Below, one piece after another: positions 764 through 28,450 of a DNA stretch of 64,000 bases; the stretch's first letter is position 1; every line of letters begins with the position of its first letter. This stretch comes from Phycicoccus sp. Root101 (GTDB lineage Bacteria > Actinomycetota > Actinomycetes > Actinomycetales > Dermatophilaceae). The stretch lies in NCBI RefSeq assembly GCF_001426245.1, contig NZ_LMCM01000010.1, positions 353,830-417,829 of the forward strand, written 5' to 3'. The translations under genes were made by a program, and so were the position numbers. Below the pieces are notes generated by a model. That model saw only the letters and a list, made by a program, of their open reading frames with translations. It was not told the origin of the DNA and did no database searches.

Positions 764-800
764 GTCCACAGGTCCGTATGCCGCCCGCGGCCGTCCACAG
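764..800. promoter_or_regulatory. Paired TCCACAG boxes upstream of ssd/cpaE
   Basis: GTCCACAG occurs at 764-771 and again at 793-800, a 29-bp period. A weak -10-like CAGGCT at 841-846 lies 6 nt before the ATG at 853, so the transcript is probably leaderless with its start at 853. On that reading the boxes are centred near -56 and -85, a typical activator geometry. The same pair with the same 29-bp period recurs at 4127-4163 and 27442-27478. The boxes resemble 7 of 9 positions of a DnaA box, but the regulator is unknown. Confidence 0.6.
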
Positions 801-852
801 GCCCGTCGCCACCCGCTTCCGGGCCGGTCCGTGACCCCTGCAGGCTCGTCGC

Positions 853-1566
853 ATGGAGCATCGCGTGCTGGGTGTCGTCGGAGCGTCGGGCGGGCTGGGG
901 GCCTCGACCCTCGCTGTCGCCCTGGGGGTGCGCGCGGCCGCCTCGGTGGGGGCGACCGTGTGCGTCGACGGCTCGTTCGAGCGCGGCGGCCTGGACGTCA
1001 CCGCCTGCATCGAGCACGAACCCGGGCTGCGTTGGCCCGACCTGTCCGACGTCCGGGGCGAGGTCGACGGCGCGGACCTGCTGAGGTCCCTGCCTGCAGA
1101 CGGTGTGGCGCGCGTGCTGGCCGCCCGCGGGTCGCCGGTGCCTGACGACGTGGTCGGTGCCTGTCTGGGGGCGCTGTCCTCGATCTGCGCGCTGACGGTC
1201 CTCGATCTCGGCGGATCCCTGCGGTGGGCCGGGCAGTGCACGGACGTCCTGATGGTCTGTGGCCCCACTGCCCGGCACCTCGCGGATGCCGCGGCGGTGG
1301 CGGCGGAGGTCGGCCGGCTCAGCGTCCCAGCGCGGCTGGTCCTGCGGGCGGGTCGGCGGGAGCCGGTGACGGGGGAGCAGGTCGCCCAGCACCTCGACCT
1401 GCCGCACGCCGGCACCCTGGTCCACGACAGCCAGGTCGTCGCCGACGCCGAACGCGCACCGGGCACCCGCAGGAACGGGGCGTTCGTCACCGCCGTGGAC
1501 CGACTGCTGGCCGAGCTGGAGGTCTGCGCCGGCCGCGGCGTCGACGCCGACCGGGTCAGCGCGTGA
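853..1566 (+). CDS. CpaE-like/Ssd protein of the Tad pilus locus
   Basis: This 237-residue protein is a MinD/ParA-superfamily member of the helicase/secretion-neighbourhood CpaE-like type (the Ssd family; Rv3660c is the mycobacterial relative). In Tad systems CpaE-like proteins help localise the pilus machine; mycobacterial Ssd also affects septation. The N-terminus shows a P-loop-like GASGGLGAST at residues 10-19 where the signature lysine is replaced, as is usual in this family, so ATP use may differ from MinD. A later LTVLDLGG segment corresponds to the Walker-B strand. ATG at 853 is preceded by CAGGCT and 6 nt rather than by a Shine-Dalgarno site, suggesting leaderless translation. It is the first gene of the tad cluster, 46 bp before tadA. 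Confidence 0.88.
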   Translation: MEHRVLGVVGASGGLGASTLAVALGVRAAASVGATVCVDGSFERGGLDVTACIEHEPGLRWPDLSDVRGEVDGADLLRSLPADGVARVLAARGSPVPDDVVGACLGALSSICALTVLDLGGSLRWAGQCTDVLMVCGPTARHLADAAAVAAEVGRLSVPARLVLRAGRREPVTGEQVAQHLDLPHAGTLVHDSQVVADAERAPGTRRNGAFVTAVDRLLAELEVCAGRGVDADRVSA

Positions 1567-4126: not shown

Positions 4127-4163
4127 GTCCACAGCACCGGGACGTCGGGGACACCGTCCACAG
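4127..4163. promoter_or_regulatory. Paired TCCACAG boxes between tadC and the pilin gene
   Basis: GTCCACAG is found at 4127-4134 and 4156-4163, the same 29-bp period seen before ssd/cpaE and before the DUF559 gene. The boxes begin 10 bp after the tadC stop and lie about 90 bp upstream of the pilin start, so they could drive an internal promoter that raises pilin expression above that of the assembly genes. No clear -10 could be fixed by eye. Confidence 0.5.
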
Positions 4164-4254
4164 GAAGGGACGACGACGGTGGTGGGTCGTCCTCCAGATG
4201 GCTGGACTGGTGCCGAAGACGGCACGCAGCCGTCACCGACACAAGGAGTGCAGC

Positions 4255-4449
4255 GTGAGATGCAAACTGGCACAGCGGTTCCCGAGGGTTCGTCTCGCAG
4301 GGGAGGCCGGCATGACGACCGCGGAGTATGCCGTGGGGACGCTGGCCGCCTGCGCGTTCGCGGCCGTGCTCCTGGCCGTGGTCCGCTCGGGAGGCGTGAA
4401 GTCGGCGTTGGCCTCGGTGATCACGGCGGCCCTCGGCATGGCGAGCTGA
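4255..4449 (+). CDS. DUF4244 Flp-type pilin
   Basis: This 64-residue protein has the form of an actinobacterial Flp-like prepilin: a basic leader (RCKLAQRFPRVRLAGEA), a processing-like GMTTAEYAVGT motif with the conserved Glu five residues after Gly, then one hydrophobic helix (LAACAFAAVLLAVV) and a short tail. It would be the major pilus subunit, cleaved by a prepilin peptidase not present in this window. GTG 4255 is chosen because AAGGAG lies 6 nt upstream; an in-frame ATG at 4198 is possible but lacks a good ribosome-binding site. It sits between tadC and tadE, as in other tad loci. Confidence 0.85.
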   Translation: MRCKLAQRFPRVRLAGEAGMTTAEYAVGTLAACAFAAVLLAVVRSGGVKSALASVITAALGMAS

Positions 4450-27441: not shown

Positions 27442-27478
27442 GTCCACAGGGCTCCCGCTGCCGCCGGGGGATCCACAG
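27442..27478. promoter_or_regulatory. Paired TCCACAG boxes upstream of the DUF559 gene
   Basis: GTCCACAG at 27442-27449 and ATCCACAG at 27471-27478 are 29 bp apart. A weak -10-like CACCCT (27518-27523) lies 6 nt before the ATG at 27530. With a start point at 27530 the boxes are centred near -55 and -84, matching the pair before ssd/cpaE (-56 and -85). Confidence 0.6.
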
Positions 27479-27529
27479 GAGTGGACGCGGACGTCGTGAG
27501 CTCGCCGGGACGTCGACCACCCTGCCGTC

Positions 27530-28450
27530 ATGGGTGGGGAGCGGCTGTGGGAACGGCGACGGAGTGTCCAGCTGGCCGCAAGCGACAGGGACGGCGTCAT
27601 CTCTCGAGCGGACTTGCGCGACCTCGGAGTCGACCGCCACTCGGTCGCGCGGGAGGTGGCGGCCGGTCGATGGCGGCTGCACGGTCGCGTCACGGTGGCC
27701 GTGCACACGGGGAGCCTCTCACGCACTGCCTGGTGGTGGCGTGCCGTCTGGGAGGTGGGTCACGGCGCGGCGCTGGACGGCATCTCGGCGCTGCACGCAG
27801 CCGGACTGGAGAACTTCACGTCCGACGAGGTGCACGTGGCCGTCCCCCACCCGGCGGTGCCGCGACCCGTCGACGGGGTGGTCCTGCACCGCATACGCGA
27901 CCTGGACCTGGATCGGGACGCGGTCGGCGCGGGTCTGCCGCGGGTCCGATCCGAGGTCGCGACGATTCGCGCCGCGCAGTGGGCGGTCAGTGACCGGCAG
28001 GCCGCGCTCATCGTCTGCATGGCCGTGCAGCAGAGGCTCGTCCGAGCCGAGCAGCTGTGCCCCGTTCGGCACCCCGGCGCGCACTACGGCCGGACCCGGT
28101 TCGTGCGACGCCTCGTGCGCGACGTGGCTGACGGAGCGCAGTCCCTGGGCGAGCTCGACTTCGCGCGGCTGTGCCGCGAGCGGGGGTTGCCCGTGCCCAG
28201 TCGACAGGTGGTCCGTCGTGGCCATCGGGGTCGCCTCTACCTCGACGTGGCCTGGGAGGATCACGGCGTGGTCGTGGAGATCGACGGGGCGCAGCACCGG
28301 CAGGGGCTGGCCGTCACGTCGGACAACCTCCGTCGCAACTCGCTCACCCTCGGCGACGACATCGTGCTGACGATCGACCTGATCGGGCTGCGCCTGGAGG
28401 AGGACCTCTTCATGGCCCAGGTCGGGCAGGCGCTCCGTCGAGCCGCCTGA
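27530..28450 (+). CDS. DUF559 (Vsr-like nuclease fold) protein with AbiEi-like N-terminus
   Basis: This 306-residue protein has an N-terminal winged-helix like the AbiEi_4 antitoxin type (GVISRADLRDLGVDRHSVAREVAAGRWRLHGR, about residues 23-54) and a C-terminal DUF559 domain of the PD-(D/E)xK superfamily (RLYLDVAWEDHGVVVEIDGAQHRQ, about residues 228-251, then RRNSLTLGDDIVLTI). DUF559 proteins are abundant orphans in actinobacteria; nuclease activity is assumed from the fold, not shown. The gene is flanked by two copies of a hairpin repeat and preceded by the TCCACAG pair. The ATG is probably leaderless. No partner toxin is adjacent. Confidence 0.82.
   Translation: MGGERLWERRRSVQLAASDRDGVISRADLRDLGVDRHSVAREVAAGRWRLHGRVTVAVHTGSLSRTAWWWRAVWEVGHGAALDGISALHAAGLENFTSDEVHVAVPHPAVPRPVDGVVLHRIRDLDLDRDAVGAGLPRVRSEVATIRAAQWAVSDRQAALIVCMAVQQRLVRAEQLCPVRHPGAHYGRTRFVRRLVRDVADGAQSLGELDFARLCRERGLPVPSRQVVRRGHRGRLYLDVAWEDHGVVVEIDGAQHRQGLAVTSDNLRRNSLTLGDDIVLTIDLIGLRLEEDLFMAQVGQALRRAA

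Follow-up and report, generated by a model that had tools for sequence, protein, structure and literature searches.

Paired TCCACAG boxes upstream of DNA-uptake genes in Actinomycetes, candidate sites of a competence activator

Box pairs in a Phycicoccus window and genome

We analysed a window of Phycicoccus sp. Root101 DNA, a single stretch of 64,000 nucleotides, in which the heptamer TCCACAG forms three pairs, all on the + strand and all with a period of 29 bp (765/794, 4128/4157 and 27443/27472). The first pair (box 1, 765..771; box 2, 794..800) precedes ssd (853..1566, +), a septum site-determining/CpaE homologue in a Tad pilus locus, whose product matches TIGR03815 with an E value of 3.7e-31, under the curated cut-off. 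Its ATG lies 59 nt after box 2, and 6 nt before that ATG is a weak -10-like hexamer, CAGGCT (841..846), the position of which matches the A(-11)/T(-7) preference of the larger pair set described below. The second pair (4128..4134 and 4157..4163) lies upstream of a Flp-type pilin gene (DUF4244; 4255..4449, +). Here the GTG start at 4255 is 98 nt after box 2 and sits behind AAGGAG, which fits a short leader on the same type of promoter; we would expect transcription to start near 4215. The third pair (27443..27449 and 27472..27478) precedes a gene for an AbiEi/DUF559-like protein (27530..28450, +; AbiEi_4 under cut-off, E 0.0064), with the ATG 58 nt after box 2 and a weak -10-like hexamer, CACCCT (27518..27523), again 6 nt before it. 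A first-pass annotation of this DNA had described three pairs of common period, other copies that are single and a CANNNT -10 exactly 6 nt before the ATG, and all of this holds. Two points need amending: the second box of the third locus reads ATCCACAG and not GTCCACAG, and the leaderless start that it gave for ssd and the third locus, which stands as a prediction, does not extend to the middle pair, where flp appears to be leadered.

Pairing, not the heptamer, is what is enriched. By itself the heptamer is not over-represented in the window, with 11 copies of TCCACAG where chance predicts 8.7. Six copies lie inside the three pairs and five are single (8918, 12251 and 34503 on the - strand; 38834 and 55170 on the + strand). 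We found no further pairs in the window at spacers of 15–29, and shuffled windows yielded a mean of 0.00 pairs over the same range.

Scanning the source genome (4.38 Mb, 12 contigs) for exact pairs at spacers of 8–38 recovered 14, with ten at period 29, three at period 30 and one at period 26, whereas the reversed pattern, counted across all spacings, yielded 4. For 13 of the 14 to fall within two of 31 spacings has a binomial probability of ~4e-15. The first-pass annotation had staked its reading beforehand on an excess at period 29 across the genome, and that excess is present. The period-26 pair (L006) has extra TCCACA copies, lies ~31 kb from dnaA and has no assigned target, and was set aside. 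Allowing one mismatch at period 29 added five places. Allowing two gave 29 matches versus 32 in the reversed control, which is background, and we therefore retained only pairs with zero or one mismatch.

Competence and pilus functions are strongly over-represented among the downstream genes, as had been anticipated. Exact pairs lie upstream of YraN, followed by YifB/ComM and DprA (L003, L251); of ComF (L004), RecA (L009), Ssd (L011) and Flp (L012); and of an MTAP gene followed by CpaB/SAF (L008, L253). The ComF and Ssd names come from NCBIfam matches under curated cut-offs. Exact pairs also precede a DUF4192 gene (L001), three DUF222 genes (L002, L010 and L014, with the Pfam scan covering L002) and three AbiEi/DUF559-like genes (L005, L007 and L013, with only L007 above a Pfam cut-off). 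One-mismatch pairs are found upstream of ComEA, two SSBs (one of them small), a ParB-domain gene and a 98-aa WXG-like protein (T7SS_signal weak, E 0.03) whose gene is followed by a lipase-like one. The ComEA ATG is 87 nt from box 1, the same distance as at L003, L005, L007, L008 and L013. An M23 peptidase, found by profile, has a period-30 pair and an ATG 59 nt after box 2.

Geometry and targets of 109 pairs

We assembled a larger set from 80 stretches of 11 relatives (G004, G007, G014, G016, G017, G018, G019, G021, G022, G028 and G037), chosen mostly for lineage-consistent spacing around pairs and not at random, combined with the loci from the pair searches of the source genome and its relatives. 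Removing duplicates from 113 pairs with an open reading frame gave 109 distinct pairs with periods of 26–34. Ten of the 43 loci L001–L043 (no pair at period 26–34) and three pairs with no predicted open reading frame (L025, L119 and L122) were left out, and loci L044–L063 lie outside the set. The mean box reads YYRTCCACAG, then G, then a pyrimidine; its core was set by the search, whereas the flanks were free. An in-frame start lies 56–60 nt after box 2 at 60 of the 109 pairs. ATG itself occurs 59 times in this interval, or 11.8 per position versus 1.0 elsewhere (~12-fold), and the peak persists at box-to-box periods from 27 to 34. By eye, we also noticed lineage-specific extra elements between the boxes, including CCCATGACA after box 1 in G017 (L064–L079) and GTCGCGTCC in G280, with others in G264 and G016; they may be a second contact of the factor.

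Targets were assigned by tblastn of 34 reference proteins, 29 of which derive from the same loci as those tested, against the 109 downstream regions. A core competence or pilus gene came first in 44 regions: RecA in ten, SSB in eight, ComM/YraN and Ssd in seven each, ComEA in five, ComF and Flp/Tad in three each, and a prepilin peptidase in one. Other families accounted for 49 regions (AbiEi-like 21, M23 6, DUF222 5, MTAP 4, DUF4192 3, Uma2-like 3, WXG-like 2 and five singletons), where the Uma2 label is weak, one piece having matched under the cut-off and another having no match. The remaining 16 regions, a few of them oriC or chance pairs, had no reference match. When self-matches were barred, 78 of the 109 regions still matched, 38 of them to core genes, leaving 31 with no target. 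Among 14 two-mismatch chance pairs of the source genome, none matched a reference.

The recA regions carry a second regulatory signature. At eight of ten (L009, L035, L042, L093, L112, L115, L133 and L141), a PafBC-like motif, which we take to be TGTCRGTG-N8-TANNNT, starts 29–31 nt after box 2, and its -10 (box 2 +45 to +47) is the -10 of the pair. At five DUF222 loci such a motif starts 99–100 nt after box 2, a position that would fit a second promoter. In all, the motif occurs at 13 of the 109 pair loci (8 recA, 5 DUF222) and is missing from 96, by raw count, and as a class the pair loci do not fit the pattern of PafBC RecA-NDp promoters. The two elements are alike in kind. PafBC is described as acting through RecA-NDp, a non-palindromic promoter motif (PMC6789036, excerpted text). 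Like the pair as read here, that motif is an activator site of DNA-repair genes. They differ in placement, the PafBC-like motif sitting just upstream of the -10 and the competence pair further upstream. The arrangement suggests that DNA damage and competence jointly control recA.

Changed boxes and spread across the class

Micrococcus lacusdianchii (G324; named via L173) has one exact pair, located in a region that we recognised by eye as oriC, dnaA–dnaN. A degenerate pattern applied to 12 genomes produced 36 matches versus 14 for its reverse, and in this genome 7 versus 2. Six of the seven Micrococcus matches are of one kind, all with period 28, with TCCTGCACAGG as box 1 in every case and TCCACCG as box 2. 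They precede genes for DUF4192, M23, WXG100, comEA, SSB and a DUF559-like protein (weak, E 0.025). tblastn on 30 regions of the changed kind matched a reference in 14 and none in 16. Several genomes of families f16 and f2 have a related variant, in which a C precedes the T of box 1, upstream of YraN–ComM, RecA, DUF4192, M23, Flp, ComEA and a TadA-like ATPase, the last named by eye from a 161-residue piece with no Pfam match. Both boxes can thus change separately within a genome, yet each is uniform across the promoters of that genome, which is the trace expected of a co-evolving, sequence-specific factor. It also suggests that a different surface reads each of the two boxes.

We then surveyed the distribution of the pair. 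At the loose spacing of 8–38, at least one pair was present in 38 of 39 relatives, several of these being chance matches or origins. In a sample of the class, 175 of 296 genomes had a tight pair, compared with 46 genomes for the reversed control, so single matches are partly chance or origins. A phylum sample gave matches in 30 of 149 genomes. Outside the class, many of these come from one family (f59) and consist of dense TTATCCACA clusters resembling origins, and the rest are scattered.

The comEA promoters offered a comparison at one gene. ComEC was found in all 40 genomes picked for a ComEC search, and 38 comEA regions were compared, with G146 and G320 left out for split matches. In 27 regions the promoter pair scored above the best of the 38 reversed controls (11.4), and an in-frame comEA start lies 55–61 nt after box 2 in 22 of these 27 and in four regions below the control. 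The 11 regions with no pair above the control comprise five from families f6, f7, f9 and f12, three of the five from f16, and one each from f8, f27 (L211, a 1000-base contig-end stub) and f31. Among these 11 are five complete genomes from the same order (G029, G030, G032, G035 and G304), which retain comEC and ComEA. A separate case is G009 (L189), of the same genus, which has two pairs versus five in the reversed control and a comEA region above the control with one degenerate box; it is a possible natural loss case for the regulator.

A putative competence activator and alternative binders

We favour the reading, to which we assign a probability of roughly 0.74, that in Actinomycetes a transcription activator recognises the pair and induces natural competence. 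From where the sites lie, their geometry, their targets and their spread, we infer that the pair would be bound and activating, that one dedicated factor would be responsible and that a competence signal would trigger it. The fixed distance from box to start and the co-ordinated box change in Micrococcus support the dedicated, putative activator of the first-pass annotation. Its competence or DNA-uptake regulon is borne out well by comEA, comF, yraN–comM–dprA, ssb, recA, the Tad pilus genes and the M23 peptidase, a cis element being common to genes of DNA uptake and processing. Under this activator model, the factor would bind two direct-repeat boxes, YYRTCCACAGGY in most lineages seen, 27–34 bp apart, with the proximal box centred near -55 and the distal near -84 of a promoter that has a weak -10 only. 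About half of the targets would be leaderless, starting at the expected transcription start; at recA, flp, the larger ssb and the Micrococcus WXG100 gene, the same promoter seems to be followed by a short leader. Such a regulon would combine DNA capture (Tad/Flp pilus, prepilin peptidase and CpaB), wall hydrolysis (M23), DNA import (ComEA, ComF and probably ComEC behind ComEA) and DNA processing (SSB, DprA, ComM, YraN and RecA). It would also take in DUF4192, AbiEi/DUF559-like, Uma2-like and WXG-type proteins, for which the literature searched, partly as excerpts, gave no link to competence.

This arrangement recalls a known system. ComK boxes of Bacillus subtilis are likewise paired, with variable but quantised spacing, and lie upstream of late competence promoters; those sites are AT-rich and palindromic, whereas the Actinomycete boxes are non-palindromic direct repeats. 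Micrococcus luteus is reported to have no ComK (PMC12849477, excerpted text). Its described transformation machinery, namely Tad/Flp pili, ComEA/ComEC and DprA (PMC4322843), is the same as that downstream of the pairs, and the available sections of the published account give no promoter motif. The available text of a 2026 paper states that the signals or regulatory cascade acting upstream of competence in M. luteus are still to be identified (PMC12849477). We found no report of the motif or of a regulator that binds it in the literature searched, seen in part, with subscription papers mostly and preprints wholly outside it.

We considered DnaA, an HTH_17 protein and a NarL regulator as binders, and none fits well. 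It is unlikely that DnaA, or a factor mimicking its site, switches Actinomycete competence via paired DnaA-like boxes, with recA joined to the PafBC response at the common -10; if true, DNA uptake would be wired to replication state. Also improbable, in our estimate, is that DnaA itself binds the pair, moderate-affinity DnaA boxes at promoters allowing replication state to drive competence. The likeness lies in the TCCACA core with R before and G after, as found near dnaA in 25 of 30 relatives' loci, a rough oriC set of all TCCACA within 1150 bases of dnaA in which five loci, including that of the source genome, gave none. The Micrococcus oriC, moreover, has four TCCACC beside its 14 TCCACA, echoing the changed box 2. 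The perfect actinobacterial DnaA box is given as TT(G/C)TCCACA (PMC4285127, excerpted text). Among boxes with two leading pyrimidines, however, TT occurs in 67 of 119 near dnaA but in only 42 of 168 competence boxes (Fisher p 9e-8), and the competence boxes do not conform to the DnaA pattern (TTRTCCACA, TT preferred). They are set apart also by strict pairing, promoter geometry and the changed box 1 of Micrococcus: TCCTGCACAGG is found in all six promoters, whereas the oriC of that genome holds 14 TCCACA and 3 TGCACA, with GGRDHTTV retained in its DnaA. A deviation common to all six promoters points to a factor other than DnaA. The relaxed DnaA consensus allows N at the position changed in box 1, which keeps the DnaA reading alive. 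A DnaA paralogue is ruled out as binder, since the Bac_DnaA_C domain occurs exactly once in each of the 34 genomes searched.

We are more doubtful still that the boxes are bound by a small HTH_17 (excisionase-family) protein, represented in M. luteus by Mlut_14660. The excerpted account of a comEA-expression screen in M. luteus implicates this protein genetically: nearly all M-mutants were altered at Mlut_14660/14650, and R64W alone suffices for raised comEA activity (PMC8467076). Using an approximate query sequence, we obtained strong matches (E below 1e-14) in 31 of 43 genomes. With the same approximate query, strong matches were absent from G257, G227 and G320 (8, 10 and 12 tight pairs, respectively) and from the four f16 genomes searched, but present in G029, G030, G032, G035 and G304, whose comEA promoters show no pair; on this measure the protein does not occur wherever the site does. 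The NarL-type response regulator adjoining comF was rejected as binder. Of 35 genomes, 17 had a match with an E value of at most 1e-30, with none so strong in Micrococcus G324, G014 or G016, and the regulator is 96% identical in G009, the genome with fewer pairs than its reversed control. Least probable is a reading of the boxes as post-transcriptional or structural elements, or as remnants of a dispersed repeat, in place of activator sites, given that unrelated genes have a common geometry with differing spacer sequences and that the boxes sit upstream of the expected transcript start, although three source-genome pairs do precede related DUF222 genes that duplication could explain.

If the pair is the site of a competence activator in high-GC Gram-positives, its cis code provides bait for that protein. 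It also offers a way to predict possibly transformable species, and it singles out little-studied genes (DUF4192, AbiEi/DUF559-like, Uma2-like and WXG-type) with a possible role in DNA uptake.

Two further target units caught our attention. In two genomes a similar pair-bearing promoter lies upstream of a ParB-domain gene (L046 and L065), with proteins that are 92% identical; this gene is perhaps a mobile element that joined the competence regulon. A gene for a small WXG-like protein, with a lipase-like (PGAP1-like) gene after it, lies under the pair in the source genome, and a similar WXG-like gene occurs in G017 (L254:2710-4541 and L259:5348-5635). This unit is possibly a secreted, competence-linked hydrolase.
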